NCBI GenBank assembly: GCA_963971285.1
Contig: OZ020254.1
Location: 14,662,932 to 14,726,931, forward strand
From: Astropecten irregularis
Taxonomy: Eukaryota > Echinodermata > Asteroidea > Paxillosida > Astropectinidae
Direction of reading: 5' to 3'
DNA length: 64,000 bases
Part shown: piece after piece, positions 27,501 to 63,833 of the stretch
Layout: every line of letters begins with the position of its first letter
Position numbering within the stretch: the stretch's first letter is position 1
Translations under genes and position numbers: made by a program
Notes under the pieces: generated by a model
The model's input: the letters and a program-made list of their open reading frames with translations, nothing else
The model's database searches: none
What the model was told of the DNA's origin: nothing

Positions 27501-30500
27501 GTATGGCACAGAAGAAACACCCCATTGGCCACCAGGAATATTTCTTGATTCATGCTCATATACATCCTCCAAGAACTTGGTCATTCCAGCATCTGCATCA
27601 TACAACAAGCTGTCGGCAAAGAAATGAAAAAGATCATCTCAATGTCAGTTACATTGCCCTCCATGTTTTACATAACCATGTTATGTCAATTGTACAACAC
27701 AATGGGGAATTCACTTTCACAAAATTGAATGCAACCAAAGTGAAGACAAGATTTGCAATGCAAAGATCCTAGATGTTTTGTTAATCAGGGTTGATAAAAA
27801 TCATGATTTTTATAAAAAAAAAAAAGAAAATCGGATTTATTTGATTTAAATCAGATTCTTTTTTATTTAAATCCATTTTTTTGATTTAAATTAAAATCTT
27901 AATTGTTTTTACGTAATAACATCTTACTATCATAATATTTTGCTTTAAAAACCCCATAAATGCTGCCAAATTCTTCTTCTTGTCACTTTGGCATTGTGGT
28001 AATTAAAATGTAGCCAAAAAAAATCAAAGCAACAAAAAACAGAAAATGTTCCTGACTGCCACTACAGGCATACTTACTGCTTCCTTGCTGATGTTTAAGA
28101 CCACATTCAAAGATGTTTCATGGCTTGTATGTACCAGTGGTCCATTTGCATCTCAGTATATGTGTATTAGAGCTAATAATGGCAGTATTACTGTGCAAAG
28201 TCAAGATGTAGTTATGTACCAAATAAAACTTCTGTGCAGTTGCATACATGTACATGTATGAGTTACATAGTATGTACATATATGTACATACATGTATGTA
28301 TGTACTGTATGTATTATTATACTGTGTGTATAATTCTATTCATTGTACCTGATTACAAGTAATGCTGTACACATACTTCAGAATACTTAATCATTTTTCA
28401 TACACGAGTGTATATACGTGAATAGCTGAATGTGTATTTTGTACAATAAAAAACTCATTGTAAAAACACAACATAAACTGTTTTAAGACACCCTGTTATA
28501 GTGGAAAAATGAAGCCGAAAGTTAATGCAAGTCTTCTTTCAGTAAGATTTTCTGTTTTTCGTCAAAACATATCAAGAAATAATGAAAAAATCATGATTGA
28601 TTTTTTGGAGCAATTTTTTAAATTTTTTTCCATTGATTTAAATCATGATTTAAATCAACGATTTAAATCGAGTGACTTAAATCAAACAACCCTGGTTTGT
28701 TTGTTTGTAATTTCACTGGCATGATTTTCTTGTTCTAACATGTGTGACCTTAATCTTTAGGGCCCACTGAGCCTAAAGACTGGGCATAAATACCAGAAAT
28801 AAAAATCACCAAACAAAAGTAATCAACTTAACAAATTTCAATTTTACAAAAATGAATTTATGAAGATATTGTGTAACATGCACGCCCACGCATTATGGTC
28901 CGTCCCTGACATTATTAATTGCTTTATTGTTTCCACTAATAACACTTTCCGATAATAATACAGCAACAGCACTGGTGCATCACAAACATAATGAGACATG
29001 CTGCATGTTCAGTAGGTGTATATATATTGCGATTACACGTCTTTCCAATCATGTTTCCATTTCCTATATCACACACTGGTACTCACCATGGCAAAGGTAC
29101 TATAATAGACTAATAACTAGAGATCTATGTCTGTCTGCAACAGAACATAGGGCTTTTCCGCAATATGCTTTTTAAATTAATTTATGTATCCATGCAATAT
29201 TTGATCTAAATATGTATGTGTCACAAGGAAGACCATCCTTAATATGGACAATTGATAAAGGAATCATAGTCCTAGCTCTTAATACTTTTTAATGAGGAGC
29301 TACTTCCTGTTTGCCCGGAAGTAGAGGTCACAGAGGTCAAGCAATGTGTCAAAAAGAAAGGCCCTCCCTAACATTGATATTTTGTGAAGGAATCATGATC
29401 CTAGCTCTAAAAACTTTTTAATGAGGAGCTACTTCCTGTTTGACCAGAAGTTGAGGTCACAAAGGTCAAGCAATGTGTTGCAAAGAAAGACCTAACCTAA
29501 CATTGTATTTGGTGAAAGAATGAACTTAATATCTCAAACGGTTGATTTTTTGTTGATTTTTAAAGATTGTGATTATTAAATTCAAATAGCTTGTAATTTG
29601 ACACCTGATGATGTCATGATGACGTAATTCACCCAGACACATCTATGCAGTATAGACTGCCTATGCAAACTTTGAACGATGTGCAACAAAGTTTAATGAC
29701 CAAAATGGATGCCAGAACAAAGCGTGTGCAAAGTCTATGGGCTCTGGGAAGAAAAAGAAGAAGAAGACAGAATAAAAATCAGAACAAACAGTATAGCTTT
29801 TCCGCATACGCTATGCGGAAAAGCAAAAAAAGTGGAACCAGTGTAAAGACAAGTACAAGATGAATTTCTTGCTCCATCATTCTTTGCAGTCTTGCACATG
29901 ATATTTTGCTACCTGTAATCTTACGGAATATTCATGTCTGATTTCTTACAGCAAGATATAGCACTGAAGCCGGCCGTGACCCACAGTGTAAAGCGCGACT
30001 TGACTGCACCAAATACACACATAGTATGTAAAGACATGGTGGCTTGCACATGTGGCTACTCCAAATAAAGTTGTAAGGATATAATATGAAGCTCCTTCAG
30101 TCCCTCTCCTCTTAAATTTATTGCATATGTATAACTAGTCGTCATGTAGGCCTATAATAATTCCCCCATGAAAAAAAAGAAGAAGAAAATACGACAAGCA
30201 AGAAAAATCACGATCTTCTAAAAAATAAAAACAAGAAAAACAAAACAAAACAGAATCCCCTGAAATGAAGTCGGCTTCCCGATCCCAAATCTTCTGGATC
30301 CCAGCCAATCCCCGAGAGAAATAGAAGAAAAAGAAATAAATGTCACGACCTTCTGAAATTATTAATTAGTCAGGATTCCCTGATCCCCAACAGAAATATA
30401 TTCATATCGCTAGAAAGATAAATTCCGATTCCCGTGGGATAGATTCCTTTATACATGAAAAGAAAATCCGGAGCCCGTGAAACCGGAGACCCAATAAAAA

Positions 30501-33500
30501 AAAATCACACCACATCCCCGAAAAATAAAGTCTTCCCCTATTTCAATAATTATAAATCCGGCTTGATCCCCTTGAAAATGCTTGCCATTGGATAAAACAG
30601 TTTTTCTTTGTTCGCTTTCTTATGACCTAGGAAACAAATTAAATCCCGATCCCCTAAAACTGAATGTATCCCGCCCCTCTGAAAAAAAAAACGATCAATG
30701 GGAGAATAAATCCACTGCGATCCTCACTCAGATTGTAGAAACAAAACTTGGATTTCTTTCAAGCATGATTGACAGCACGATAAACCAGCCTGCAGCCATA
30801 TCAGATTTCAGAAAGGTACTTTTTGTTCTCCTCTCCAAATAAGGTTCGAGAATATATAAAGTGCTTTCAGCCCCTTCGCTGAAATGTTTTATTGTACCCA
30901 TGCAAGAAATAACTCCATATATTAATCCACCAAAAGACCCCCATGAAAAAAATCATGACAATGAAGAGAAACCACGATCATCCAAAAGAAAAAAACAACA
31001 CAGAAACAGATTTCATTTATTTCCCCAACGATCTTCAGAAATATATTCCATCCCCAGAAAAAAAAAAAACAAAGACAAAAATTTTCCCTGAATAAAATGC
31101 CGATCCCACTAGAAAAAAGATTGAAACAAATCACGACCAATAAAATGCACGCGATCCTTTGAAAGTAAAAATGAAAAGGAAATCTCAAGCCCCTGAAGAA
31201 AGACCCGTTGGGACTATTATTTTATACATAATGCTGAAGTCATCAAGGAAATGTTGCAAAGTTCCAGCATGGGGATGACTGTTGTCCACTGCTCAAGAGA
31301 CAAACCCGGCTGCAATGTCTGTACCCTCAAAGAAATTCCCCTAAATAGGTTGATGTCAAGTATGAATAGGGCAGGCACAATAGGACTCGATAATGAGCTA
31401 ATGCTTGGCTGAACTCCAGGCCAGCCATCCCCATAGATGGTGCAACTGTTCAGATTAACTGGGTCTCTTTTGTAGGGGGATTAGGGCACACAATGGACCA
31501 GCAAAATTTTGCAGGGCCCTGGCCTGGTGAAGACTCCTTTTGGGAAAGCCGAATCAATATTAACACCCTGCTCCCTAAAGGCCGCCGCACATGAGAGCTA
31601 TCTGCTAAGCAAAAAATCTCTCGAGGCCGTTAGCTCAGCACTTACCTCACGTGTGCGGTCGATTTTTGGTGAGATTTCTGCCTCTCGAGGCCGTGAGACC
31701 AAAATCTAACATGTTTGATTTTTTTGGCCTCGCGTGGATAAAAACTCACCGTGTGCGGTGACTTGAGCTACGTGCTGAGCAAAAAAAGGGCAACTGACCA
31801 ATGAAAGCGGATGCTCTGTGCCATGTGATTTCCAAAATGGCTGCGCCCATGGACAACGTTAGCAACGTTGTCACTGACTACATTTTGGAGAAGTCGGTCG
31901 ATTTGTGGCCGGACTATCCCTTTCTTTTATATAATGCACATTCGCCTGATTTTATGAATAAGGATATTATGGCAGATGTGGGTGGGGGGGGGGGGGGGGG
32001 TATAGCCGAACTTGTTCCCGACTCCCGTTTGAAAGACCAAATGAAAGACAGTCAATATTACTTGTTTCCTTGTTTTGCTAGATCCGCCCCTGTCCAGTTA
32101 AAGGGCATGTACAACACCATGGTAACAAACCAAAACATAAATGTTCACAGATGTACGTATAACTTCCAGGGTACTAAGATGGTGTTGGTAAAAACACCGT
32201 TACAAATTTTCGCCTGAAATGATGTAGCCTATTTATCCAGAAAGAGTTAAACCAAACTCCGAAAACATTTTTGATTTTCGCAAGATAAAAAATCCTTGTA
32301 TATGCTTTATAAGAACAATTGAGTCGGGTTTTGAGCTCAAAATTGTACAGGCTTAAAAATTCATGTACATGGTGGATTAGACAAAGTGTGAGTGCTGTTC
32401 TGTCTCCTTTACCAACGTTTTACTTATCCCTTTATACCATAGTGTTTACATGAAATCAGGTTCATTATAATATATTATTTTATTATAGGCTATTATAATT
32501 CATTTTGTGTACCCTAGTACCCAGTTTTTGTTTCAGCCGTTTATATATTTTCATATTCGTGATTTGTTTATTTCAGCTATTTATGTTTATTCCCATTCCT
32601 GTAATTGGCGGTCATTTCACTGTTGGATGTGATGACAAAATGGGCGCCGCTATTTTGGAAGTCACATGGCACAGAGCGTGCGCTTTCATTGGCCAGTTGC
32701 CCTTTTTTTGCTCAGCACGTAGCTCAAGTCACCGCACACGGTGAGTTTTTATCCACGCGAGGCAAAAAAAATCAAACATGTTAGATTTTGGTCTCACGGC
32801 CTCGAGAGGCAGAAATCTCACCAAAAATCGACCGCACACGTGAGGTTAGTGCTGAGCTAACGGCCTCGAGAGATTTTTTGCTCAGCAGATAGCTCTCGTG
32901 TGCGGCGGCCTTAAGGTTACACAATTTTAAAAACAGTAGGGCAAGGGAAAATACTTGAATAGGGCTCCGCGCTCGTGACGTCACATTCAGAGGTTCGGAC
33001 AAACAAGTCGCACGTGGCCCCATTAACTTACACGTAAAACGTTGTGATGTTTGTCCGAACATCCGGGTAACTATAGCTGTCGATATAAAGGGCGTATTCT
33101 ATAAAAAGCTCGAGCGCGGAGCCCTATTGATAAATTTTGGAATATCTAAACCTATCAAAATTCGATTGCTTGTAATGACACCCGATGATGTCATGATCAC
33201 ATCACTCTGGCAATAATTGGACATAGGATCTATGACTCCTCCAAGTTGTTGTTAAATCACCATAAAGCTGTACAGAAAAATCAAATACCGTAAAGATACA
33301 GCGCACCCTTGTATATAGCGCTCCCATATTACTATTTCTCTGTCCTTGTCCAATTGTTTACATGTTTGTTTTGAACATTTTATAAAAAGTACACAAAACA
33401 GCTCAGTGTTTGTTCACAAACACATTCCTAGTTTAAAAAAAAAGTTTTTCCCCTTAAAAAAACTAATTCCCCTGAATAATTTATCACTAGAAAAAAGAAA

Positions 33501-36500
33501 AAAGAAGATATTATTTCACAGTCTTGAAAATAACCAATCCCTGAAAGAAATCTTGCAGAAAAAAATCAAGATACAAAACAACCCACCCCTCGAAAAAAAA
33601 AAGCTCTGATTAATTACTTGAGTGGCGTATGAGTTGGTCGGCGTACGAGTTGGTAATTAGCATATGGGTTGGTCAGCGTATGAATTTGACGGTGAACGAA
33701 TTGAACAAACAGAGTACGAGTTGGTCGGCATATGCTTTGGTCAGCATACGAGTTGACCTTCTTCGGAGCCGACAATAGCTTGCTACAAATTCCCCCCCAC
33801 CTGTTGTGGGTTGAGTCTACTAGTTCATACCTACCCCAGACGGTTACTACTATATGCAAATTCCCCTGCGCCAATTTGCTGCTTTGCTGAAAAGACTTGA
33901 TCAACCGTGGTGCACCCTGACCTCCCACAATGCATACCGACATAGCCGCCATGATCGTCCTTCTTTTCGAAGCAAGGAGGCTCGAGGCCAGAAGTGGGGA
34001 GGACGGGCGGGACGCAACCGTCTGGGGTAGGTATGAACTAGTAGACTCAACCCACAACAGGTGGGGGGGAGTCTACTGCATTCAACCTACCCCAGACGGT
34101 TACTACTATATGCAGAGTGGCACCGAGTTACGTTGGTGGGCTGGCTACATGGAGAGCCAGGAAAGTTTGGTGGATATGAATCAGGTTAGCATAATGGGCA
34201 CAATGCCCATCGTGAGTTCGCCATGGGCAGAGCTTCCGTGGAGGTCTTGCCCATCTGTCAGCAGGCCTGAAGGAATCCTGGTTTCCAGGTCGGTGAAGCC
34301 AGGATTTTCCTGTCGTACATGAGTTAAGTCGCTCCGCAGGACGTCCCTCAGGTAGCAAGAGGAGAAAATGGAGGGGCATGCTGCCTCGTCCAAGTCTGAT
34401 GACAGAACTCAGAAATAGGACCAGGATGCGAGTACTGTTCTCGCATCTTGTATCAGTGGGTTTGCTGGCCCGGTTTAGATGGGCAGACTGGGCATGCAAA
34501 CTTGACAGTCGAGGCGATCCAGCAGATAAACGTGACTTTCGACGCTGGGCTTCGTGGTAGTGGCGAAGGGCTGAGAGGGGTTCCTTCTCAAGTCCTTAGA
34601 TTGGGCTAGGTACCAATGGTGTCTGGTGGCTCGAAGACAGGGCATCAGTTTTTGGTGAGGAAGCCTATGGTTGGAAGGAGTCGAGTGCTGTGTGGCATCC
34701 GGCGTATGTGGCATTCAGCTATCGATAGGGCCCTGATTTCACTGGTCCTCGTAGGCGTAACCACTGACAGGAGGAAGGTTAGTAGATGCACGGTATAGTG
34801 TGCTAGGGGCCATTCGGTAGAACGTGGCCCATAGGAGGTGTGTGCATTGGCCACATAGGTTGAGAGGGGAGGGCCATCCTCGAAAACATCGCATGTAGTC
34901 CAAGCAGACCTGTAGCTGCGGTTAGAAGAAACTTGGAGCCTGGTGTGGAGCTGGTGCGTAGGCAGAGGTCCGCCATAGCCGTTAGTGGTGTAATAGTAGG
35001 AGAAGGAGAGGGAGCATCTTCGTGGCACCACATCGGGGAAGGTATAAACAGTCACCGGGTAGCCATGACAGAGGCGTCGTTGTGAGGCCCCGCTGTGAGG
35101 GTCCTTGTATGGTGTCCAGCATGTTGGGTGTTGGTTTTGGGGGCTGTACGCCCCAAGCCAAGTGTAGTGGAGGGTGTCGGGCCCGGGTAGTATTGACTGG
35201 TCGTTGCGCGACTGGCCCGGGCCGAGCCCCTTAGTTTGTCTCTCGACAATGGTGAGAAGTTTCCTGCCCGTACGCACGACTATTGTAGGCGTGTGTCCAG
35301 TGCTTGGTGTAAGTCACTGCCAGTACTGTCCTATGTACATGCTATGTAGGAGGGCAGACGTGTGTCTCGGTCGCAGCGGCCACCTGTGGGGTCGTTATTG
35401 GCGGTCGAGAAGTGGAAGGTGGAGTGAGGTGTTGTCCTTGCCGGCGTCCCCTGGATGATCCAGGGCGGGGACGTAGATCAGAGGGGCACAACCCATCCGC
35501 TCTGAGTGACGGGTCAGGAGTAGGTGTGTAGATGTTCTTGCTTGCTCTCGGTATAAGTGAGAGTGCTGGCATATGTGTTGCAGGGCTACTAAAAATCTCA
35601 CAGTGATTGTGGTTCTGATGCTGGTACGGAGTGGCGGCCTACTCGTTGCGCCAGTCCGGACGACACGGGTTCAAACCTCACCAGGAACTATTCCAAGTTG
35701 ATCCTTGTAGTGGGGTTGGAGTTCTTGGAGTCGGAACTTCACGCCTATGCTGGGTATGTGACTGACGTCCAGCGTTCGTCATGTGGATGATGTCCAATGG
35801 TTGCTCCGAGTGGACCGTTTGAACAGGTAGTTCGGTCCTTCGCCGAAATCTGGGCCGAGAAGCCAGGCGTTTTGGGCGAGTTGACGTAAGCCAGGCGTTG
35901 TGGGCGAGTTGACGTATACCAGGAGAATGTGACCTGGTTGGATCAGGTCACTGCCATTCTCTACAAAGACCTGTGGGCCACGAGGCTCAGGATGCTAAGG
36001 GTATCCTGAGCGGGGTGTTTTTGACATCTTCCAGGGGTTTGTAGGAACCGGGAGTCGAAAACTCTGGACTGTGTCTTGTTGTGTGTGGCAGCAGGTGTAA
36101 GGTCATTGGCAGAGATGACCTACTCATCCAATGATGTGGAATGATAGCCAGACGTAAGGCGTCGGGATTCCCTGTGTGTTCCCCAAGTTTGCGATCTGCA
36201 GAAAGGAACTGGGGACCGTTGGGCTGGCCCGAGTCGACTTTGGTCCTGCTCGCAGAGGTTGTTTGATGCGGGGTACGTGTCGACGGGGTCCATACCCATT
36301 GGGTATAGGGCCAGCGTGTTGAGGGCTGGCATGAGCCGGCCATCCTGGTGGTTACGATTAGCTGGAAATGTTGACCTTCGTGGAAGGGACTGTGGCCACA
36401 GCTATTCAAGGTAATTCTTCAATGTCCTGGGTAGAGTCGATGGAGAAGAAAAATTGCCTTGTATTTTCCGCCGATGGGCGTTTTAAGGCCCCAAGGACGT

Positions 36501-39500
36501 CGAAAATCAGTCCCGCAGGTCCGAGAGGGGTGCTTCGGAGTTCTGCAATGTTGTTGCCAATCGTCAACGGGAGCTATTCCGCAACGAGCGGTGGGCTTGT
36601 GGAGTTGACGGTGGAGGTAGGCTGGGTTGACGCATGCCGGGTTCTTGCCTGCCTTGGCATGTAGTGACTCGGCACTGTATAAGTGCCGCCATGTAACTAG
36701 AATTTGACAGAAAGGAATGAGGAAAATTCCAATCCATACCATACTTTGTACAGTGTTTATCACTTTTCAAAGCATAAGAATGAGAGAAGGTGAGGAAGTC
36801 AGCTGATCCGAAGAGGTTGCAAGCGTGATAAGTAGTGATGGTTCATCTCAGACTATGTAACAACGTCAGGTCATGGAGGTAGAACAAGATCAGGTTGACT
36901 AGTCACCTCCCAGTACCCAATATATTTTGGGTCTCTATGTGGTGAGCAGTACATGTACAAGTATTATCACATGTATAAAACATGTACATGTATTATCACA
37001 TGTATGACCTTTGACCTCAGGATAACATGGATGGCGAGTGAGCTAGCCGAAGTTCGAGTCAATGCATGCTCGCATTTTAATCACCTTTATCACTCTATTC
37101 ATTATCCAGTGTCCAAACAGGATACATGAAGTACACTTATGACTGCCAGGGTCGCCGAGGTCACCGATGTGGAGCCACGGAGCGGTCTTGGCTGTAGTCA
37201 TTGTAGTAGTGTGCGAGCCGTAAATGACGGTTGTACAATGCGCCCGGAAGTGCATTGTGCGTGGTCGTTGAACAGTTACGTGCAGTGCGTGTAGACCCTC
37301 GTTCCGGTAGCGATAGTGAACGATGATTCAGTGTACGTGTCTCGGGTACATGTTACCGCTCCGTAGCGTCGAGCTAAGGTAGGACGCGTTATCGGCCCAT
37401 GGGCACTAGCCTGGACAACTCGACTGGGAACAACTCGCCATGAAGCAGGTCGACTGCAAGCGGCCGGAGAGGGCCGAGCCCGGAAACATAGTGCGGACCA
37501 GCGTGGCCATTGGGCGGTAAAAACTGCAAATGGGAATCCTGGCAGCTTTCCGCTCCGCGAGGAAGAAAGTATTATCCATCAATGCATCCGTGGAAGCATA
37601 GAGTTTAGCCTTAAGTCGTCCGCGGGCCAACTCGGCCCAAGGTGCGTCGACTGCAGTTGGGGCCGAGCCGGCGGCATCGTTTCCGCTCCAGTAGATGGGA
37701 TGGGATGGGATCCATGTACAGTACGAAGTGCGTGTACAGCGTATAGCAGATTCCAGTATGGATAGGACAGGACAAGTCGGCCATGGAAGTGGAATGACTC
37801 GACTTGAGACAGTCCGACCGCGGGTACAATCCGACTCTGAGGGTGACAGTCGGCTGGACCCGGCTGCGTAAAGGGCTATCGCGGCTGAGTTGGTGCAGGC
37901 GTTGAGGCTCTCCGCTTTCGTTGAGCGATGGTCGGAAAGACTCGTATAAAGTCCATCTCGAGCTAAAAATTACATGTATGCTGTAAATTGTGGCCCGATG
38001 ACCAAGGATAATAATAGATATGTGCCATGAGCTTCATGCTTGGCGAATACCGGCGCATTAAAAGAGTCCATTATTATTGTAATAAAGGTGACACTGCGCC
38101 ATGGAGCTTGGACTGGGCAGAGAGGGCCAGATAAGTGGGCGCGTCCAGGCGGCAATCGTCACTGGACGTCGGTGTAATACTGTAGTGGGTCCAACTGATT
38201 GTGACCGCCGATGCATCACGGGACAAAGCCGACGGTGTTGACCTGGCTTGTATGGACGATGGGCCGTGCAGCTGTGTATGTAGATATCTCCACATCTTTC
38301 CGCTTGGGGAGAGCCCAACAATGGCAATGATGTGCGTGTGACAATCCATGTATCAAATGAAGGGGGGCCTGGTAGCGCGGCTAACAAAGCCGTGCGTGAT
38401 GCCCCGTGTCCTTCGATCCCTTCGCATCAGAGGTGGCTGACAATAAAACATTGTACATGTAGGGGATGGATACGCATTCCCCGTACTAACGGGCTGTGAT
38501 AATAAGCCGGGCTGACGGGGCCTGTTGAGGGGTCTTTGTTGTGTGTGACCCCCTGAAGCTTTCAGCTCTATGCGGCTGGGCCACGCAGTAAAAGAGCGTC
38601 CCTTTGACGTCCGCAATCGTGCTCGCCAGACTGAGGGGTGGTAGGCATATCACTTCTCTCACCCCACAGCAATAGCACATGATCTTCGGCGAGGTGAGCC
38701 TTCATACCGTGCCATGTACATGTATAGGCGACTGGAGGCCGCTAATGGTAGCGGGTTGAAGTCGGTGGCATAGTGCGGGCTGGAGTAGCTGTCTGGCAGT
38801 TCAGCCGTGTATGGAACTCTCCATGGCTTTCCGTCTGGGTAGAGCCAGACAATGGACGTGGGGTCACGGTGCTCATTGGCTGCTCGAGCCTCTACACATC
38901 TCTCTGAGGTCCGCAGTGGTGTTCGCTCGGGCGTAGCGGTGGTACGATAGTAGCACTGCTCATATACACTGACGTCTGAGGCTTTGTACATCGGACAAAG
39001 GCGTAGTGTGCAGAATAATAGCTAGGACCACTGGAGGCTGCACGCACACAGGCCATCTCTCTGACGTCCGCAACAAAGCCCGGCAGACATGGGGAGCGAA
39101 AGCACGTCATCACGGCTCTTACCCGTAGACAGCTAGTATATCGGCTCGGGAGACCGGAAATCATAACCGGGGCGAGCCTCTGTTCAGCGGGTCGTAACAA
39201 TGTTTCCTAAACAAAAGGAGCATGTTACGCCCGGGCCAGTCATTCCGTTGTGGCGGCATCCTTCGTCGCCTCTGGTAGCGAGCGTTCTCCCTCCGCTCTG
39301 GTAGCGACCGTGGTATCGAGCTACCCCCGGCCGTAGGCCTCTTCGGGACGATTAGACACGTAGCCTTCAAGGCATGCCTAGTATCTAACCGCCCGGAATT
39401 CCTTCGGACTGGCAGTGGTAGCAGCAGTAGCCCGGAATGAGGGGACGAACCCAAACTCGGCCATTCCGACTTGCTGTACCGCGGAGGGAATGAGGTTAAA

Positions 39501-42500
39501 CTCTCATCCATCCCCCCCCGCATATAAGCCTTTCATCGGGTCGTAAGCACAGAGCCGGCTGTGCGTTACCCCGGCATCACGTAGAGGTGTATAGACTGCG
39601 ACAACGTAGGACCGCGGTACCTGTAGGATGCACAAAGAAAAAGAGAGAGAAAAATACCAAAAACAAACGCACAAGAGAACACTGTTTATTGGTAACGGTT
39701 AATCAGATAAGTAAAAAGGAAAAATATCAAGTCTATACAGTTTGGAAGAGCAGCGGGAAACGGAAACTCGAACATCGAAAGAGCCCACGAAGGGCACGTC
39801 CGTTTCATAGCGGCGCTGAGAAAAGAAGGACGATCATGGCGGCTATGTCGGTATGCATTGTGGGAGGTCAGGGTGCACCACGGTTGATCAAGTCTTTTCA
39901 GCGAAGCAGCAAATTGGCGCAGGGGAATTTGCATATAGTAGTAACCGTCTGGGGTAGGTTGAATGCAGTAGACTGAGTGATTGGCTCAATGTGCTTCAGA
40001 TTGTTATTCTGGCATCCGCAATAGCGCAAAACAAATTTTGTGATCGGCTAGACAATCCCACTGGGCTAATCTTACAATAAAGCAAATCAAAATGGCAGTC
40101 CACGTTGCAGCGGAATGCTGTCTCGAACTTGACGGTTTTAACCATGAGGATAAGGACATTTCCCAATGAAAACATGACTATTGCTGATAAAAATAATTAC
40201 TCCAGACACAGGTTTGATTGAACAATTATGACATTCTTAAATGAAATGTAAACGTCCGAACATGGTCCGACGGTACGACCATCAGTGAAAGTTTTCCTTG
40301 GCCTGTCGCAAGGATGGGAAATATTAGATTTTTTTTTTTTTTGGTATCTTTCATGAATCATTTGCTCACTTTTGAGTCAGACATCGCGCTAATTGGTTAC
40401 AGTTCCTGTCCATACAAACAATATTGCCTCACAAGCTTTTACAAGTTACAAGGCGCGGCGCAACCTACACTTAATACGAGACCGCCAGCGGACTGTACCC
40501 ATGTATACGGCGCACCCCAACTTTTGATTTTTGCTGAGGTGAAATTTTTTTTACGGTATTTGTTCTTTGAAAACGTTTACAAAATCACTGGGACTGATCA
40601 AATATTTCCAAAATTGTACAATAAATCACGTGATGATGTCAGCATGAAGACAAGTTTCAGCATACATCTATGAAGTCTATGCCAACTTTTAAATGATGTG
40701 TAATAGTAAAAGTGGCATGTAAAAAAAAAACATGTACAGTCTATGGGATTTTGTGCAAAAAAGAAGTGGAAGAATAAGAGGAAGACATAAAAAAAAATAG
40801 GCTTTTCCTCTCTCACTCTGAAAAGCAAAACAAAATCCCAATAACATAACAAAATCCGCTGTAATTGCTTACAAAATGCAATATGAAATTATTTGATATC
40901 AACATAGGTCCATGGCGTGTGGAGTGTGTGCAGAGACCGCTGCACAGCGTCATGGCACTTTACAGACTGACATTTGACCGGATGTTGGGCTTTACCAAAT
41001 GGCCTTTTCCCATGTTACATTTCTGCACTGCAACAATGTTCTCAGTTAGAGTGAAATGAAGAGTTTTACCAGGCTGAGGGTAGCCAGTAAAAGTAACCAT
41101 TGGACTCTGTTAAAGTAATAACTGAGAGTAACGTTTTTTAACTGAACTCAATTGGGTAAGTAACCATTGTCTCGGTGAGTTTTATTCCCCATAATCCAAT
41201 GGGAACAGGATTTATGACCCATTGGCTTTGCCAGGAAAGCAATCAAATGTTTGAGAAAGATGTCTTTACCTCAGTTCAGGACTGATGTGCCAATCAGCAT
41301 CCCATCTCCATCCCTCTGGTGTGTTGAAGCTCTCCTTCTTCAACTTGATCTATTTCATCATACAAGATAAAATGCTACTTCACATGAGTTCAAGTTATTA
41401 GTACCCTAGAAATAGTTTAAATAGAGATGTTAGCTCCGCATGCAACTTGAACAAAATGAGATGAGTGGGGGGACAAATTTATTCCAATTGACAATCTTTT
41501 ATGAACTGCACCAAAGCTCCTTGTCTTTGAAAATATTGTACGATGCAAATGTAACTTAAAAGTTATATAGTAGCTTCCACAAGTTTGTATTGTCAAGTAA
41601 TCATAGGAACTCATGAATTACATTTCAATGTTTTGCAGCAAAGATTATTGTACTTAATCTATAAGTTGCAATAACAATGACCTATAAAGAAACATTGATG
41701 TTTAAATATGTACTTGATTCCAATAATGCAACATGTATTGTTGCTTCACTCACTGATATATGAATTGAATCAATTGTCCAGGACAAAAAAAAGCATAACT
41801 ACATAACTTCACTATAATTCAGTCAAGAATTCATGCACGATCAACTACATTTGCATGTATTCTTAGTTGAAAGATGCAAGTTAGCAAGTCATCTAAAAAT
41901 ATGTAACTTTTACAACCTTAATGAAATCAAAAGCAATAAGATCTTACAAATAAAAAAATATACAAATATAAAACAATTATTATAAAAACAATGCTTGTCA
42001 TATTATATGGTGTATAAACATCATACCTTCCCAGTAGTATCAGAGAATTTGGGTCTTGGTAAGGCTTTGCTGGTCCAATTTCCCAAAATGCTCATTTGAT
42101 TCTCGTACTGTAATGAGAAGATTTAAACATGTTATTTTTATCTGGTATTTTGCTAGCGCTTTGTCTTTCAACAAGAAACCTATCAGTGTGCTATGAGTGA
42201 TAGAAAGTGCACATGTCTTACTGTATTGAATAAAAACATGTGGACTCCTGCAATATTCCTGTGGTATGGCTGGGATTTAATCCAGCTTTAAAAAAGCTTA
42301 GGGAGCATGGTTTCTTCAGAAGACCTAAGCAAAACCATGATTAAGCTTGTTCGATATCCAGTTTTGGGCATATCGAAATATCGTGAAGAAAATATCGTGA
42401 TATTCGATATATTTGTGGTGACGTCATCTTTTTCTTTTCTTAACTGTTTTATTATGTAAGCATGCACGGCAGTAGTGTAGACACGTCCTCAGACCTGGGG

Positions 42501-45500
42501 GGGTTGATCGTGTAGCTGGGTCGTACTCCCATATACGTTTGTGCACAAAATCATTTTTTATATGTTATATAGAAAGTGGTTGCAACCCCCCTAGCCCCCC
42601 GGGATCTACGCCCATGATGCACGGCGACCGCTCGAAACGTAATCTCTGAAAAAAATATCCTTCCAAAGTACCGTAAAATGCATTTTCCTGACCAACTAAA
42701 TCTTACTTAAATTTTGGCCGGTTATTTTGTCCATTTGGCAAAGTAGAAACACACTTTTCGAACTTCATCTGAAAATATATCGTGCAAAAACCTTCCGAAA
42801 GCGACGATCACTTTGAAGAAGACGTAAACAGTCAGCACGCTGTCTGTTATGCCCAACATAATAGCCACGATAATTAACGTGCACTTAGTGAAATACATAT
42901 CAGATCTTACTCCATGTAGTCTGGAATTATTGCGCTCACGGTACGCTGCTAGCTTCAGTCATGTTGGCCGGAAGAGGCAAGCATACATTGCACAATGCAA
43001 TTGTGGGCAACGCGGCATGCACATGCTCACAGCACAGTACGGCCAGCACATGTGTAGGCTTCAGTCATGAATGCCGGAAGTGCAGCGTACATAGGCTGGT
43101 ACAGTGAAGTAGCGCACACAGCGTCGTTCTGAATGATCATTACTATCCAATGGGTACATTGATTCTTCATCGATGCTGTATTCCTCCCAAGGATGGACGC
43201 TATTTGTATCATTTCAGCCATTTTACTTTTGAAATGATCGGAGTGCATGTATTGCGTGTGGGTATATAATATGCAACACACTGTGTATACAATTACATAT
43301 TCCTGAATATTAAATATGCCTGAAACAATAAATATATGTATTGTATAGTCAGAAATAAGATAGAAAAGAAAAAAGGTTGGAAAAATTTCCAATGAAAGAA
43401 CTCTCAAGCAATGAGGCAGAAGATTAAAAAAAAAAAATGACAGGATTTAATTTTCTGTTTGTTCCCAGGTTCTTGCACAATGCACATGAACCGAACAATG
43501 CAATACCTGGTAGATTGTTCACAAAAATTGCAGGAATAATGAGGATTTGAGGAAAATTTGACAAACTCTTTCAAAATCTACCAAAACATGAAGGAAGGAA
43601 GGACTTTTTTCTTGTTCCCTCCTTGTGATTTAGCTCACAACACAACACAAAAGGGCAAATGTGATAATGGCCATTTTTGATGGGTGCTTAAAATGCTAGC
43701 TTATTATATGCTTTACCAACAGTATTATATTAATGCGGGATTTGTTGTTGCATTTTGCGTGGGATTCCACGGTAGCGAGAGACCACCGGAAACCAGATTG
43801 AATTTGGTGATTTTGCATGGGTTTCGTGGTAGCATTGGTTGACAGGAAACCAAATAGATGATTTATAAATGTTGCATTGAACTAGTGATTGCGTGGGTTT
43901 TGCAGGTTGCAGAAGACCGGAAACCAGGGAGATGTTGTTGCGTTGAACTTGTGATTGCATGGGTTTTGCACGACTGGAAACCAGGGAGATGTTGTTGCGT
44001 TGAACTTGTGATTGCATGGGTTTTGCACGACTGGAAACCAGGGAGATGTTGTTGCGTTGAACTTGTGATTGCATGGGTTTTGCACGACTTGAAACCAGGG
44101 AGATGTTGTTGCATTGAACTAGTGATTGCGTGGGTTTTGCGGGTTGCAGACGACCGGAAACCAGGGAGATGTTGTTGCGTTGAACTTGTGATTGCATGGG
44201 TTTTGCACGACTGGAAACCAGGGAGAAGTTGTTGCGTTGAACATGTGATTGCATGGGTTTTGCACGACTGGAAACCAGGGAGATGTTGTTGCGTTGAACT
44301 TGTGATTGCATGGGTTTTGCACGACTGGAAACCAGGGAGATGTTGTTGCGTTGAACTTGTGATTGCATGGGTTTTGCACGACTGGAAACCAGGGAGATGT
44401 TGTTACGTTGAACTTGTGATTGCATGGGTTTTGCACGACTGGAAACCAGGGAGATGTTGTTGCGTTGAACTTGTGATTGCATGGGTTTTGCACGACTGGA
44501 AACCAGGGAGATGTTGTTGCGTTGAACTTGTGATTGCATGGGTTTTGCACGACTGGAAACCAGGGAGATGTTGTTGCGTTGAACTTGTGATTGCATGGGT
44601 TTTGCACGACTGGAAACCAGGGAGATGTTTTTGCATTGAACTTGTGATTGCGTGGGTTTCGCGGTAATGACTGAAAACCGGATAGGCCTATTATAAGGAA
44701 TTGGCCGATATTTATTACAGCTTAAGTTATTTGCGATATGCTTATGACCGAAAACAAATTTACAATGTTGATCATTATTGCTGCATTTGTGTTTCACGGA
44801 CCAAGACATTGTACTGTCCAAAAACATGGCCCACATATTGTGCCCTGATTTGAAAGTGAAAATAATGAAACTGCTCAGACCACTCATAACATAAATTTAC
44901 TAAAGTATTGTGACAATTTCTTGATTGTCGTTCTGTCGAATGGGGGAATAATGGACTCTGTACACTATACCATGGAACTATAATTTGTTTATACATGTAG
45001 CTCCATGATCATAAATACAGTACAGTACGTGAGTCAGGTACATGTATACTGTACAAGGTATACAGCATACTGTGTATGTACATGTACATTATGTGCACAT
45101 CTATACAGAGTGCGGTGCAGGCGAGAATTCGCCTCATGCATATAATAATTCACTATACATATAGGAAACCGCAGCCAATAGGCAATAGCAAGCGTTTATG
45201 TTAATTATGGCCTTTTCCATCCTGGGAAAAATAATTATGCTGCCATAACCACATCCATGAGTCTGATTCCATCAGTCAATGGCTCTACCAATAGGGATCT
45301 AGCACTTCATCTAATGACACAATGAAAAACACAATGCTTATTAAAAGGGAGCATATAGGATATGCACGGCCTCCAAAAACAAAATTATTGAGTTTGCGAC
45401 AGAAAATTGACTCAACAGTTCTTAAACAGTGACCATGGGAAATCGTCCGAACGATTTTTGGAACAAACATAAAAAGTAAACTATTCTTCATGTTTTATAA

Positions 45501-48500
45501 GAAAAATCGAGTCGGGTTTTCACTATTTTCTCGTGACTCAGATGTCCGATTGAGCTCAAATCTTTACAGGTTTATTATTTCATGTACATGTTTGATCAGA
45601 CAAAGTATGAGTGCAGTCCTGTGACCTTTACCAATCATGTAAATGTAATGTACCTTAAATAACACTCACTCACTCGAAATATGACATAAATCAACAGTGA
45701 TTTAAGAATGATTCTACATGTGTAAATGACTAATATTCACCAATAGGGAGAATTTATTGAAATGGCAACTTCAAATGGGGCCCTCTGTATGTTTCATAAG
45801 TAACAGTGATGAAACTCAAAATTTCCCAAATATCCTGAAATCCTAAGAACCATATCACGGTGATTGTAATAAAGCAAGCGTAACTACTGCCCGGCTGGCC
45901 GCAAAAATGGCTGGAATGGTAGGTGTACTGTTCTCTTAACGTGCACATTTTCCAATGTTTCTTTGACTTGGCATGGTTTTTCAAGTCCTTCTAACCGGAA
46001 GAGTCTGTCGTTACACCACAAGCATATCCCAGCTGGTCTATTTTCCGGATGTAATCCGACAAAAAGTCTCTGTTGCTATCCTTCTCCTCCAACCATTTCC
46101 AACTACAGACATTTCTGATGTTTTTGTTGACGTCCTTTATATTGTATGACCGATCTACCAATGTTGGATAAAAAGCAGATTATTTCGCTTGACAACGACA
46201 GCTTGACATGACAAGCGGCCCAAAACAGAACATGAGAAACGAGTAGCAACACGCATGCACATGAGAGATCCAGCCTCTAGACTTCGTTAGAGGCGTTATT
46301 CTACCCCAAATGGAAGAGGGCTTATTATTTTTTTCATTATCTTATTACGTAAATGTCCGTGTGTGATGTCTGTAGATGGATCTGTTCCATAGACTACACA
46401 TGTCAGCTCATTCTGCTCGCAATTTGCACATTATGAGACGGCACAAGATTAAGGCTAGGTACAACATACAAACATTTTCACCAGGCCAGGATGGAAAATC
46501 AATGAAAATCCGGGAAATATTTTTTCTACCTCGCCGATATCCGGATATCTGGATAAATCCGGGAAAGTTTCATCCCTGAAGTAAGGTGAAATAAGTGACA
46601 GCTTACTGTTTCAGCAAAGACAGCAATGGATGAAGATCCAAGTGCAGCTTGGAAGTTTCCAGATTCTGCTTCCAGACCAAGCCACAGCTTCATACGTAAC
46701 ATACCAGGGATCTTCTTGGCTCCAATATTCATTGAACTCTTACCCGCAAACTGGAAAGCAAAAGAAAATGCACAAAGCCGTATTAATTCAATTGTATGAA
46801 ATAAAAGCACACAATAAATATGAATTTGTATTCATACATCATACAAACACCACAATAATATGAATGAAAATTACTCTTTTCGGTGTCCTGTGTTGATGAG
46901 CTTTAAAATCAAACGGCAGTTTGTAGGACATCCTACAAAATGAGTGTGTGTAGTTTAATATTTTAAGATGTTTTGTCAGAAATTCTGATGACATGATTCA
47001 AGGTATCCAAGATTTATTTTGTTTAGGTTTAGTGCACCGTAAAACAAACCGAATGCGCATCTTTCACTCATGATCACGTTATAATAATAATGCTAAGAGA
47101 ATGTCAGGCTTGACCTTTCCATTGAAAATATTCATAACAATATTTTATTTCCGGATTGAAGTTTTTTATTTCATGAACATGATAAAAGCACTTTTAACTT
47201 GATGATCTTCATTCTTATTGGGAGATTAAATGGATGCATAAGCTTTTTTGATTATTATTTTAAAAATGCCATTGAAATTGTAAATTTTCTGCTAGAAGGT
47301 AACAAAGGAAGGTTGCATCTTTTTTCCTCAATTTACAATTTAGATTTGACAATTCAAAATATAATAAGTCTGTATAAAACATTTTGTGGAATAGAAATTA
47401 AGCATATTTAAGCGCAGCATTTACTTTTAAACATTTTTTAAAGAGTCCCATACTTTTTTATGAATTTAATAATTTTTGCACAGAATTAAGTATAAAGTTA
47501 TTAAATGTGAGGTGTGCGTGCAGTTTGTCACAGATGCCAAACCCTGCAAGTAATTTAAATGTAAGCAGAATATGGGGGGAGGGGGGGGGGATAATTCAAG
47601 CCAGAGAGAGAAGCATATTATCATGATCCAACAGGAAAGTAATGTTATCAAAGCTCAATGGAAACTATCAAGAGAATGATGTGAATTGCACCTATGAAAC
47701 CACAGACTGCAAGTATCCATATGCAAACAAATCATAATTGTAAAATCAAATCCCTCAACTGCAAAAAGCTTTATAGTTCATACATAGACACATGCATGAT
47801 ATAGTACAACGACTCAGGCAAGAATTCAAGCAAAAATGAAAAATGCATAAATGCAAAAATGAGGGCATGTTTTGACTGTGCAAATGTCTCTTTTTGTGAG
47901 AGGTACTGTGTAGACACATTTGGGACACACATAATGCTGTTTTCACCACACTTCAGTATACATATAAAGGCACCATACAAATATTGTGGACAGGCTTATT
48001 TATTCTCAGTGCAAGCCAAACTTGGACATACAATGGGCCGTATGCATAAAAAGTATCAATTGCTTGCAAGCAATTGCTTCAAGCACAAGCAATTGCTCGT
48101 CAGGCAAAATATTAAGCTCAAGCAATTGCTTAAATCCGTATGCATAAACTTTTGCTTTAGCTTAAACCTTTTGCTTGCTTTCAGTGAGCAATAGCTTGAG
48201 GTTTCAACAATAAGGATGCCACGCCGGCGTGAACACCATTCATGGGAGAGCAAGGAGAGTTACGTAATATGTGACGTTTGTGGGTAGATGATCAGTACAG
48301 GATGCAAAACACTCATACAAGCTCTACAGCAGGCAAAGACCACCATCATGACCAGTATTGGCAAAAGGATGGATGAAAAACAAATAATGAAAAAAATGCC
48401 AAGACAAGTGCGAAAACAAAACACAAACGGAATAATTTCCGATAGGTCACTGGAGCCATTTCTTCTCGATTTATTCTACTCCTGTACAACTTCGGGGTTT

Positions 48501-51500
48501 CTCTTACGATCATGAACATGATGACTAAACGCAAACATCATATTGGGCCGTATGCATAAAAAGTAGCAATTGCTTGCAAGCAATTGCTTCAAGTACAAGC
48601 AATTGCTTGTCAGGCAAAAGATCAAGCTTAAGCAATTGCTTAAATCCGTATGCATAAACTTTTGCTTCTGCTTAAACCTTTTGCAGGCAATTACTTGAGG
48701 TTTCAACAATAAGGACGCCACGCCAGTGCAAAAACCATTCATGGGAGTACAAAGGCGGATTACGTAATATGTAACGTGGGTGGGGAGGTGATCAGTACAC
48801 GATGCCTAACACTCATACGAGCTCTACAGCAGGCAAAGACCAAAAATCATGACCATTTTTTGGCAAAAGGATGGATGAAAAACAAATGAATACAAGAGCG
48901 AAAACAAAACACAAACATAATTATTTGCTGGAGCTATTTCTTCTCGATTTATTCTACCCCTGTACAACTTCGGGGTTTCTCTTACGATCATGAACACGAT
49001 GAATGAACGCAAACATCATGATTAAGCAAGAGCTCAAGCTGGTATGACGGAGCTTCAAAAAACGTAAGCAATTGCTCATAAGAGCAAGCAAAAGATTCAT
49101 TTTATGCATACGTTTTCTATAGCAATTGCTTATCTTTAAGCAATTGCTTGCTGTCCGCAAGTTATTGCTTGTGCTTGCTAGCAAAAGCTTTTGCTTGCAA
49201 GCAATGACTTATTTTTATGCATACGGATTCAAGTAAAAGGCTAGTACAAGCAATTGCTACTTTTTATGCATACGGCCCATTGAGTGTGTGGTTGTGTAAA
49301 GAAAAATGGGGATAGTTTTAGTCAGTGGGCCGTATGCATAAAAAGTAGCAATTGCTTTTGCTAGCAAGCACAAGCAATAGCTTGCAGGCAGCAACCAATT
49401 GCTTAAAGATAAGCAATTGCTTACAAAACGTATGCATAAAACAAACCTTTTGCTTGCTCTTATGAGCAATTTGATTACGTTTTTTGAAGCTCCATCATAC
49501 CAGCTTGAGCTCTTGCTTAATATGATGTTTGCGACTTTGCGTTCAGTCATCATGTTCATGATCGTAAGAGAAAGTTGTACAGGAGTAGAATAAATCAAGA
49601 AGAAATGGCTCCAGCGACCTATCGGAAATTACTCCGTTTGTGTTTTGTTTTCGCTCTTGCTCTGGCATTTTTTTCATTATTTGTTTTTCATCCATCTTTT
49701 TGCCAATACTGGTCATGATTGTGGTCTTTGCCTGCTGTAGAGCATGTATGAGTGTTTTGCATTCAGTAAAAGAGAATGGACGAGGAGTGTAGATTCGTGC
49801 AAAGAATGGGCGAGGCGAAGCCGAGCCCATTCATGCACGAATCTACAGTTCCGAGTCTATTCTCTGACTTAAACTATTCGACAACAAAGATTTATTTAAA
49901 TGAAGCTCCCACTTAGCCCATTTGCCAGGTTTTGTAAAGGTGTAGATTCGTAGGCCTCATTCATTTGACAAAAGCAGATATAAAAAGCTTAGGAATTGTT
50001 CTGAGGCTGTCATTTGGAGTACAGACCATTCAACGTTCATCATAATGAGCGACAGTAACAGCTCAAACGATCTCCCACTCACTCAGACAAGCTAAATATT
50101 AACATGCCCAAATAAATTCGTTCGCGGAGGTTTATACTTATGACAGTGGACTTTGATTTTTGTAACTGTAAGCAAATTATTTTGTCTGTATAGACGGGAA
50201 AATATTAATAATAGTGTGTTATTTGATTTTTGGTGTGTTATTTAATTTATCATTGACATGTACATTTTCTGTCGTATTTTGTTATTCCAACTGTTGCGTT
50301 AGAAAGTACTGTTTACATGGAAGCTGGATTTTGCCTAGTTAATATTTACTGTGTCTTATACTGGAAGTGGTGGATTTGCAATAAAAATAAATACTGTGAT
50401 GTTCAGAAATTAATCTACAGAAAACAGTCGATTCTTTAAAATAATCTACAGTAGCGTGTGCAAACTGTACATTCTTAAAAATTAACCTACAGCGTGAACA
50501 ATAGAATGACATCACAAGAATAGTTTAAGTACTTATCATCTCCCCACATGTTACATATTACGTAACCCGCCTTTGTACTACCATGAATGGTTTTTGTGAC
50601 GGAGTGGCGTCCTTATTGATGAAACCTCAAGCAATTGCCATGCTGAAAGCAAGCAAGAGGTTTAAGCAGAAGCAAAAGTTTATGCATACAGATTTAAGCA
50701 ATTGCTTCAGCTTGATCTTTTGCCCGACAAGCAATTGCTTGTGCTTGGAGCAATTTCTTGCAAGCAATTGCTACTTTGTATGCATACGGCCCATTGACAC
50801 ACAAAACACATGCATAATGTACCCTTCATAACGCTACTACTGTTGTGCTCAGAATCACACAAACTCAATGAAGCGACCATTACACAATGTCATCACAGAC
50901 TTTCCCTTATTCTACCTCATATCATGCAAAGCCCCCATTCACATAATGAAAGAATTTGAACCATGATATTTTTACATAAATCTTTCTTGTATGGGTGTTT
51001 TGTTTTAATAGGGTTCTTAATGTTCTTTTATTCACTAACCAGTATCTGTTCAGATTTTTTAGTCTTATCCTAAATTCAGCTTTTTATTATATTTATTCTA
51101 TTTCAAAGTTTATATAGGTTTCATTATAAAATTGCCGTGAGCGTCAATATTTAGTGGATTTTTGCACAACACAAACACTATATAATTACTGTATTCTTAT
51201 TATTTTGCAATCATGCTTTATATGTAAAGTTAAGTTAAAGTTTGTTTTGTAGACTTAAAAAGAGGTGGATAAAACAAACCTAAGTTACATATTTTCCTTC
51301 ACACGAAATAATTACATCCATATTGCATCATAAACCTGAACCATCATAATTATAAAATGATCCCTTAGATATGGCGGTGTGTGCGTGGTTTCGTGGCTTC
51401 CGACTGCCAAACGAACAAAGATAATTGACTAATAGAGACACCACCAACGTAGGGCTGGATAGCTCAGTTGGTAGAGCCAACATATTAATATTTACATTCA

Positions 51501-62862: not shown

Positions 62863-63833
62863 ACTAGAGATTGTGTCTGTTGAAAACAGAACACAAGGCT
62901 TTTCCGTTTCTGATTTTATTGAAAAAATTTTCATAACGATATATACACACAAATACAGTTGATTATGATTTTATGTTTATACATTTGAAGTGTGCACCTT
63001 TAATCATAAACTCACATGAATTGGCCATATTTGTGTCACAAAGAAAGACCTTGCCTAACATCGACTTTTGACGAAAGAATCATGATCCTAGCTCTTACCA
63101 CTTTTCAATCAGAAGCTACTTCCTGTTTGACTGGAAGTAGAGGTCACAGGGGTCAAGAAATGTGTCACAAATGAAAGACATTGTCTAACGTTGTCTATTG
63201 GTGAAAGAATCATGATCATAGCTCAATACCACTTTTAAATGAGCTACTTCCTGCTTGACCGGAAGTAGAGGTCACAGAGGTCAAGTAATGTGTCATAATG
63301 AAAGACCTTGCCTAATATTCACTTTTGGTGAAAGAATCATGATCCTAGCTCTTACCACTTTTAAATGAGGAGCTACTTCCTGCTTGACCGGAAGTAGAGG
63401 TCACAGAGGTCAAGTAATGTGTCACAATGAAAGACCTTGCCTAACATTCACTTTTGGTGAAAGAATCATGATCCTAGCTCTTATCACTTTTAAATGAGGA
63501 GCTACTTCCTGTTTGACCGGAAGTAGAGGTCACAGAGGTCAAGCAATGTGTCACAATGAAAGACCTTGCCCAACAATCACTTTTGGTGAAAGAATCAACT
63601 TAATATCTCAAACCGTTGATTTTTAAAGATTTTGATCATTAAATTCAAATTGCTTGTCACATGACACCTGATGACGTCATGATGACGAAGAGTTTCGGGA
63701 GACAACTACCCTATATGTACTATCTTCAGACCAAGTTTGGTTAAAATCGGCTGTTTAAAAGTGACCAAAGTGCCGCCGACAAAAAGTCTATGGTAACTCA
63801 AACAACAAGAAGAAACTGTAGAAGAAAAAGAAG
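62863..63833 (+). mobile_element. Helentron/HINE-like element with four 129-bp monomers
   Basis: Head ACTAGAGATTGTGTCTGTTG and AAGGCTTTTCCGTTT, as in unit a. Monomers have GGAAGTAGAGGTCACAGAGG at 63263, 63392 and 63522 and a variant at 63135. The tail CTGATGACGTCATGATGACG ends in GAAGAAAAAGAAG, again without the hairpin, directly before ACTAGAG of the next unit. Confidence 0.65.

Follow-up and report, generated by a model that had tools for sequence, protein, structure and literature searches.

The 6183-bp stretch at positions 33792–39974 of the window (the whole 64 000-nt length of Astropecten irregularis DNA under analysis) is a bounded mobile element, and is very probably derived from a DIRS1-like tyrosine-recombinase retrotransposon, as a non-autonomous element that a coding partner mobilizes in trans. 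It is young and multi-copy, with DIRS-type ends and almost no DIRS genes, and the missing functions seem to be borrowed from intact relatives within the same genome. Since it has no frame for reverse transcriptase (RT), RNase H or methylase and no working one for recombinase, it is classed as a non-autonomous derivative and not as a DIRS1-like element proper.

Ends of the element and the internal complementary region

The element sense is the minus strand. The features are as follows.

33792–39974, minus strand: whole element, classed as non-autonomous DIRS1-like; bounds taken from fixed ends in fetched copies, near-identical ends genome-wide and the internal junction copy
39960–39974, minus strand: 5′ terminus, formed by the 15-nt divergent part of the left inverted terminal repeat and starting AGTCTACT
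39820–39959, minus strand: 140-nt conserved part of the left inverted terminal repeat, with one mismatch to the right one
39836–39973, plus strand: mirror copy (46 codons) of the outward peptide frame, located in the left repeat and regarded as incidental
39175–39974, minus strand: 5′ region common to the coding partner (88.5% identity to L041; 91–94% to L042, in which 39541–39717 is missing)
35911–39174, minus strand: GC-rich non-coding filler, ∼3.3 kb
35692–35910, minus strand: relic of ∼75 codons, interrupted by a stop, of the frame that precedes RT in the partner (tblastn)
34250–35200, minus strand: frameshifted tyrosine recombinase relic (tblastn E 3e-25 and 2e-15; 63–71% by sensitive blastn)
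34016–34114, plus strand: internal complementary region (ICR; rICR 34016–34069, lICR 34070–34114)
34070–34072: junction trinucleotide AGT within the ICR
33829–33968, minus strand: right inverted terminal repeat, conserved part
33830–33952, minus strand: outward peptide frame of the preliminary description (the 41 codons common to both ends), located in the right repeat and regarded as incidental
33814–33828, minus strand: right inverted terminal repeat, divergent part
33792–33813, minus strand: right extension (22 nt) with the 3′ terminus CAACCCACAACAGGTGGGGGGG; its sole match is the ICR
33789–33791: trinucleotide ATT adjoining the 3′ end

The inverted arms extend over 160 nt (33814–33973 against 39815–39974) and are 94% complementary. 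Their inner 140 nt contain a single mismatch and are followed by the 15-nt divergent part, so that the mirror-image ends reported in the preliminary description are confirmed. A CCCAC...GTGGG hairpin can be seen by eye within the right extension. The ICR corresponds to the 3′ end joined to the 5′ end at 99 of 99 aligned positions, with one extra A at the boundary; the alignment scores 95, against a maximum of 14 among 100 shuffles. The preliminary description overlooked this internal copy of both ends, the 22-nt extension and the coding relics.

The ICR and the 3′ end carry the same lineage-specific variants, namely ACCTGTTG, ACCTCTTG (L041–L044), ACCGGTTG (L047) and TCTCCCCC (L028). They differ by one base or in the length of the C-tract in L012, L014, L018, L023, L024, L040 and L041. 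Two ICRs of the ACCTGTTG type (C20:8471949 and C25:3379193) adjoin P0001 matches (77% and 96%), and this type is not restricted to non-coding copies.

The anatomy is that of the DIRS1-like elements Dictyostelium DIRS-1 and SkoDIRS2, with inverted repeats made of conserved and divergent parts, a right extension, paired ICRs that match the joined ends and overlap at a 3-nt circular junction, and an NTT-type target that is not duplicated; the likeness, drawn from the parts of the source available, is one of anatomy only (PMC3266345). SkoDIRS2 is given there as 6283 bp with divergent and conserved repeats of 15 and 142 nt, an extension of 27 and ICRs of 63–65. The corresponding sizes here (6183 bp, 15 and 140 nt, 22, and an ICR of 54 + 45) match the table of DIRS1-like elements in that source (PMC3266345). 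The circular junction, AGT/ACT, differs from theirs, the comparison again being by anatomy and not by sequence. Unlike DIRS1-like elements, the window element lacks the enzyme frames listed above and contains the ∼3.3 kb of filler.

The 41 shared outward codons noted at each end, starting from ATGs at 33952 (minus) and 39836 (plus) and differing by one residue (Q/R), are indeed present. The peptide is not conserved and looks incidental; in two coding relatives, L041 and L042, a stop follows 26 codons at either end. Strong bidirectional promoters are reported for the Dictyostelium DIRS-1 repeats in the part of the source available (PMC4482531). The GC-rich interior is likewise borne out, with values of 0.50–0.56 in the six kilobase bins of 34001–40000 against 0.315–0.449 in the other bins of the window.

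Copies in the genome and their insertion sites

The 28-nt end motif has 535 matches in the genome at ≤2 mismatches, and a control has none. The best 40 of 591 first-look candidate matches to the 309-nt left end (the window copy among them) cover at least 307 of the 309 bases at 99–100% identity, and the best 40 of 588 matches to the 475-nt right end are 97–100% identical. Because the 40 near-identical left ends lie at separate places, a local assembly artefact as the source of the mirror ends is excluded. Among the 100 listed matches to the 28-nt motif, 27 repeat–ICR–repeat triads account for 81. Sixteen aligned copies are 96.6–99.7% identical. Of the 20 copies fetched (window copy counted), 17 keep both ends; the 5′ end is missing from L010, L015 and L022, and reaches the last T in 12 of the 17 copies that have it.

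The trinucleotide A[TC]T immediately precedes the left end in 15 of the 20 copies, or in 17 if extra C residues are allowed. Among the 17 two-ended copies, 15 have no flanking match of ≥3 nt, so that the target-site duplication of terminal-inverted-repeat DNA transposons is largely lacking. Shuffled pairs would give 0.7 duplication-like matches, fewer than the two observed, a point against the preferred explanation. When the joined flanks are compared with related unoccupied repeats, L017 is clean, L025 has one extra T or a 3-nt gap, L018 has mismatches close to the joint, and the alignments of L013 and L014 are unclean. The further copies that the preliminary description suggested looking for exist; a target duplication is scarcely seen, and a trinucleotide shared with the junction is found, as in DIRS1-like elements, with empty-site alignments that are partly unclean.

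Coding partner and interior of the element

The same genome contains a coding partner (L041 and L042) whose ends are almost those of the window element. In L041, an open frame of 1094 aa matches RT (E 1e-23) and a SAM-like domain (E 4e-4) and, below threshold, a recombinase; RNase H (E 9e-5) and, weakly, Dam are matched in an overlapping frame. In L042 (GC 0.58), one frame matches RT (E 7e-25) and another, of 622 aa, matches SAM-like and recombinase domains. The two RVT_1 matches lie above the cut-off; RNase H (E 9e-5), Dam (E 0.026), SAM-like (E 1e-4) and Phage_integrase (E 0.0029 in L042, 0.089 in L041) lie below the curated cut-offs. The partner therefore has the RT, RNase H, methylase and tyrosine recombinase coding of a DIRS1-like element, methylase and recombinase being weak, and the window element has a recombinase relic only. 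Six more places match both halves of the 622-aa frame without a stop at 96–98%, and of the 19 exact ACCTCTTG-type ICRs, 18 have such a match no more than ∼310 nt away. Of the partner copy on C24, the stretch covered (L045) does not extend to the 5′ end.

The partner and the window element share the ICR layout, the 5′ 800 nt (88–94%) and a GC-rich composition, and differ in the RT, RNase H and recombinase frames of the partner. The right repeat of the window element is identical to that of L041 or L042 at 172 of 179 positions; the extension reads TCTCCCCACCTCTTG in the partner and TCCCCCCCACCTGTTG in the window element. As the 3′ ∼1 kb is only 71–78% like the partner, the direct donor of the window element may be a lineage other than the partner. 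Two relatives of the partner, L046 and L047 (77–78% by protein), were considered as closer donors and rejected, being no closer than the partner. Searching for the recombinase family PF00589 yielded 108 matches, of which many are in open frames; by eye none lies within 10 kb of the element copies known at that stage. One such locus that was fetched (L039) belongs to a different DIRS family, which combines RT and recombinase with a 77-nt inverted repeat and has only 34 nt in common with the window element.

The relic at 35692–35910 matches the partner frame by tblastn with 40% identity (E 2.5e-5 with L041; E 1.8e-6 with L042); the reversed-sequence control gave matches in other frames only (E 0.81 and 1.0, L041) or nothing at 0.1 (L042). 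It is gag-like by position only, with no Pfam match. The terminal part of the RNase H/methylase frame may also survive in the recombinase relic (E 0.004). The filler (GC 0.53) has no counterpart in L041 or L042 apart from a 96-nt patch at 38594–38689 (68%, E 8e-7). Two segments resemble DNA outside the element: 37986–38078 is 89% identical to window positions 518–610, and 36513–36661 is 70% identical to the flank of L025.

The longest open reading frame of the window element is 222 aa, a length attained by 5.5% of 200 surrogates, and none exceeds 346 aa in the 20 fetched stretches. Pfam comparison of 15 open reading frames (11 of the 59 in the window and four from other copies) gave no match above cut-off (best E 0.015). 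In line with non-coding DNA, 15 comparisons with L018 show 170 indels of ≤12 nt, of which 22 are multiples of 3.

Alternative explanations, mechanism and significance

The preliminary description proposed either a non-autonomous giant element, which stands, or a DNA transposon carrying captured promoter and first-exon copies, which is at odds with the DIRS-type ends and the ICR. A cut-and-paste transposon would have long inverted ends, and the interior is GC-rich without a recognized transposase; against this, target duplication is scarcely seen, the mechanism gives no role to an internal copy of the joined ends, a partner whose ends are almost identical codes for RT and recombinase, and the peptide frame stops in that partner. 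We regard it as extremely unlikely. It is very unlikely that the copies are autonomous DIRS elements that decayed individually, and not a lineage spreading while non-coding. The recombinase and gag-like relics would fit such decay, but the closeness of the 16 aligned copies, the lack of an open reading frame >346 aa in the 20 stretches and a filler without counterpart in the partner, save the one patch, do not.

The element could also be read as two, a 278-bp inverted-repeat MITE (33792–34069) beside or inside a 5.9-kb element (34070–39974), each part being flanked by perfect inverted repeats (55 and 45 nt). The best 40 of 591 left-end matches nevertheless cross the joint, each starting at query base 1 or 3 and ending at 309, in a ranking by a score that favours full matches, and the arrangement is both that predicted for an ICR and shared by the coding relatives, leaving this reading a negligible probability. 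A Helitron or Helentron-like rolling-circle element would agree with the lack of clear duplication, the 22-nt asymmetry of the ends and the extension hairpin, but RT, RNase H and tyrosine recombinase domains are found in the partner, and Helitron ends are not known to carry a copy of the joined ends; there is next to no chance that this is correct.

For the preferred reading, a non-autonomous DIRS1-like derivative, we infer trans-mobilization by the enzymes of the partner from the sequences. Minus-strand RNA of the window element would be reverse transcribed by the partner's RT, and the incomplete cDNA ends rebuilt and joined with the ICR as template. The predicted product is a circle with the joint ...GTAG-ACT-CCCC... 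(plus-strand reading). The partner's recombinase would then recombine the ACT of the joint with a chromosomal AYT, an exchange that leaves no target duplication.

TOC1 of Chlamydomonas is likewise a kilobase-size non-coding element ascribed to tyrosine-recombinase retroelements, but has split direct repeats where the window element has inverted repeats with an ICR. LARD-type non-autonomous LTR elements (Dasheng/RIRE2) also depend on the enzymes of a different element to mobilize a long non-coding interior; unlike the window element they are LTR retrotransposons, with a DDE integrase and target duplication.

SIRE of Trypanosoma cruzi, a truncated non-autonomous VIPER, is a tyrosine-recombinase retroelement that keeps its partner's ends, as here; according to the part of the source available it comprises 185 + ∼30 + 220 bp, against 6 kb with filler, and its partner VIPER has split direct repeats (PMC6681497). 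SIRE is the only non-autonomous recombinase retroelement named in the parts of the literature covered, and these contain no mention of a non-autonomous DIRS with inverted terminal repeats, which may be on record elsewhere, for example in Repbase.

Window-type left ends that are near-identical number at least 40, against ∼20 partner-type ICRs. We see an even chance that these copies represent a non-coding DIRS1-like parasite lineage of about the partner's length which outnumbers the partner, with the junction copy and terminus changing together between lineages. If this is true, that joint change would be natural evidence that DIRS ends are rebuilt from an internal template, matched variants of ICR and terminus across lineages supporting the template model from natural data. 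A family that is gene-less and still mobile would moreover reveal the sequences needed in cis; the retained ends, the ICR, ∼800 nt at the 5′ side and ∼1 kb at the 3′ side would delimit the cis requirements of the retrotransposon.

Anatomy of the element

The element of the window is located as follows (window coordinates):
33792–39974, minus strand: non-autonomous DIRS1-like element
33814–33973 and 39815–39974: terminal repeats, reverse complements over 160 nt (94%)
34016–34114: internal complementary region (ICR)

Both the mirror-image ends and the GC-rich interior reported in the preliminary description are borne out. The inner 140 nt of the terminal inverted repeats contain one mismatch between the arms, and the interior has a GC content of 0.50–0.56 per kilobase bin, against 0.315–0.449 in the other bins. 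The segment 34016–34114 is the reverse complement of the outer end of the right repeat, followed by that of the left repeat. An alignment to the 3′ and 5′ ends in joined form shows identity at 99 of 99 aligned positions and a single additional A at their boundary; it scores 95, and the best among 100 shuffles is 14. This is the ICR that defines DIRS1-like elements. It sits at their 3′ end, so that the element is read in the sense of the minus strand. The DIRS1-like layout, with a 3-nt circular junction, no duplications and NTT-type termini, is described together with element sizes in the available text of PMC3266345. SkoDIRS2, from the same text, is 6283 bp long (divergent 15, conserved 142, extension 27, ICR 63–65). 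The window element is close to it in anatomy (6183 bp; 15, 140, 22, ICR 54 + 45), where measures and not sequences are compared.

Several other repeats are present in the window. A 57-bp minisatellite (43813–44685, ∼13 copies) can be read through in long frames on either strand, over 388 aa on the minus and 269 aa on the plus strand, because 57 is a multiple of 3. An inverted repeat at 31574–32916, with 277-nt arms that are 96% complementary and 789 nt apart, is possibly another mobile element. Nested inverted repeats cluster at 48026–50796 (longest with 197- and 154-nt arms), and 40-nt inverted repeats (93%) lying 3.1 kb apart at 19714–22887 resemble DNA transposon ends. Direct repeats (58438–58981 and 60284–60835) are 88–94% alike and ∼1850 bp apart. 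A 129-bp tandem repeat family forms arrays at 3593–5453, 6786–7472, 10245–11701, 29129–29557 and 63021–63759, and also occurs in or near the flanks of three genomic copies of the element (L010, L013 and L014).

Copies, termini and target sites

In the 475.7-Mb assembly 40 matches to the 309-nt left end were scored (the best 40 of 591 candidates), each covering at least 307 bases at 99–100%; for the 475-nt right end the 40 scored (of 588 candidates) are at 97–100%. Allowing two mismatches at most, a 28-nt end motif matches 535 times (246 + 289), its reversed control not at all. Among the 100 motif matches listed, all are mismatch-free and on contigs C1 and C8 to C11, and 81 form 27 triads in the expected orientation. 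Full elements of all kinds thus number at most about 178 (535/3); scaling by triads extrapolates to ∼145. The motif listing is biased against the coding relatives with nearly the same ends (L041–L044), since two of their four 3′ ends read (L043, L044) mismatch the motif. Motif matches cluster at C8:30222837–30336864, C1:25068388–25114691 and C1:6136772–6513104; a coding relative lies ∼127 kb from the copy at C1:6136772.

Twenty copies were fetched, including that of the window (L009), and both ends were found in 17 (the far end is missing in L010, L015 and L022). Sixteen of the 17, leaving out L014, were aligned; they are 6.07–6.93 kb long and 96.6–99.7% identical, gaps excluded. At the left end a C tract comes first (CTCCCCC in L028) and ACCTGTTGTGGG next. 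The right end reads ...GAATGCAGTAGAC, with T next in 12 of 17. A[TC]T immediately precedes the left end in 15 of 20 copies. L014 and L018 also have A[TC]T, but with two extra C intervening; L012 has CTT with one extra C, L011 has TAT and L013 TTT. Duplication-like matches of at least 3 nt occur in 2 of 17 copies, compared with 0.7 expected from shuffled pairs, a test in which the three extra-C copies could hardly score. Joined flanks were also aligned to related unoccupied repeats among the sequences analysed. Those of L017 align cleanly across the joint, and those of L025 have one extra T relative to one relative and a 3-nt gap relative to another. The flanks of L018 align with mismatches near the joint, and those of L013 and L014 align though with differences.

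The coding partner and what the element retains

One coding relative is located as follows:
C8:26662900–26669000: L041, with repeats and ICR as in the window element

In L041 an uninterrupted 1094-aa frame contains reverse transcriptase (RT; E 1e-23) and a SAM-like domain and gives a recombinase match below threshold; a frame overlapping it has RNase H (E 9e-5) and weakly matches Dam. L042 is 97% identical to L041 across 4.2 kb. Its first ORF, of 449 aa, is without a Pfam match; it also has an RT frame and a recombinase frame of 622 aa. A genome search with the L041 frame (42 of 2529 candidates scored) gave 59 matches, several containing stops. At least six further places have both halves of the frame open (777 and 1001 aa) at 96–98%, and their ICR carries ACCTCTTG. 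Coding matches are found at three of the 27 listed triads (C1:6264201, C8:26635005 and C8:26663440). L039 (C8:25880000–25889000) belongs to another DIRS family, in which the RT frame overlaps a 345-aa recombinase frame; it has a perfect 77-nt inverted repeat on the 3′ side and only 34 nt in common with the window element. Matches to tyrosine recombinase (PF00589) number 108 in the genome, and many of them lie in open frames; the top seven, on contigs C66, C72, C76 and C161, are perhaps bacterial sequence.

The window element shares with L041 and L042 its 5′ 800 nt (88–94%) and 3′ 1 kb (71–78%, by stretch). A recombinase relic with frameshifts lies in the 3′ part (tblastn E 3e-25), and immediately upstream of it, in the sense of the element, are the remains of a frame that in the partner comes before RT (E 2.5e-5 to 1.8e-6); one reversed control gave E 0.81 and 1.0 in other frames only, and a second gave nothing. 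Comparison with L041 and L042 revealed neither RT nor the greater part of RNase H in the window element. The filler (35911–39174) has no similarity to the partner except a 96-nt patch (68%, E 8e-7). Because two stretches of it (37986–38078 and 36513–36661) have relatives outside the element, it may in part consist of old repeats that were acquired. At 0.53 the filler is poorer in GC than L042 (0.58), so that the GC content needs no separate explanation. The longest ORF of the window element is at chance level, and short indels disregard codon length: among 170 measuring 12 nt or less, 22 are multiples of 3, with 30 longer indels excluded from the count. The longest ORFs of L024 (344 aa) and L028 (346 aa) have no Pfam match above cut-off.

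The ATGGCGGCTATG frame is present at each end as described earlier, and lies within both terminal repeats. Its proposed role as a captured gene start is not supported: the frame carries three replacements in L041 and L042 and is closed there by a stop after 26 codons, at either end of each, and in the non-coding copy L040 it stops early at one end. From these sequences there is no reason to think it a conserved gene start. The DIRS-1 repeats of Dictyostelium have strong promoter activity and bidirectional expression (available text of PMC4482531), and by analogy outward RNA from the repeats of the window element is plausible.

The element would work like a DIRS1-like retrotransposon and, judged by sequence, descends from one at least in its ends. 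It is filed as a non-autonomous derivative because the coding content expected of such retrotransposons is lacking. From the shared ends, and the youth of an element without genes, we infer that the partner moves it in trans.

Co-variation of the ICR and the 3′ end

Lineage-specific bases agree between the 3′-end extension and the copy of it within the ICR. ACCTGTTG is found at both places in all 21 non-coding copies read (L009–L028 and L040) and in L046, a relative of the partner; ACCTCTTG at both in L041–L044; and ACCGGTTG at both in L047, another relative. In L028 TCTCCCCC replaces TCCCCCCC in extension and ICR alike. The exceptions are a single-base change confined to the ICR (L023, L024 and L041), one C fewer at the end (L040) and extra C there (L012, L014 and L018). 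Genome-wide the ICR pattern has 54 matches. Nineteen exact ones are of the ACCTCTTG type, 18 of these within ∼310 nt of a coding match. A further 13 exact ones carry ACCTGTTG, and two of these adjoin coding matches (77% and 96%), so this type alone is not a mark of non-coding copies.

The agreement fits a cycle in which the ICR would serve as template for the end of the element; the exceptions would be explained by mutations that arose once a copy had inserted. Non-autonomous recombinase retroelements are already known, as SIRE in the available text of PMC6681497. What may be new is the form, with terminal inverted repeats, ∼6 kb of length and filler, and the natural support for the template model.
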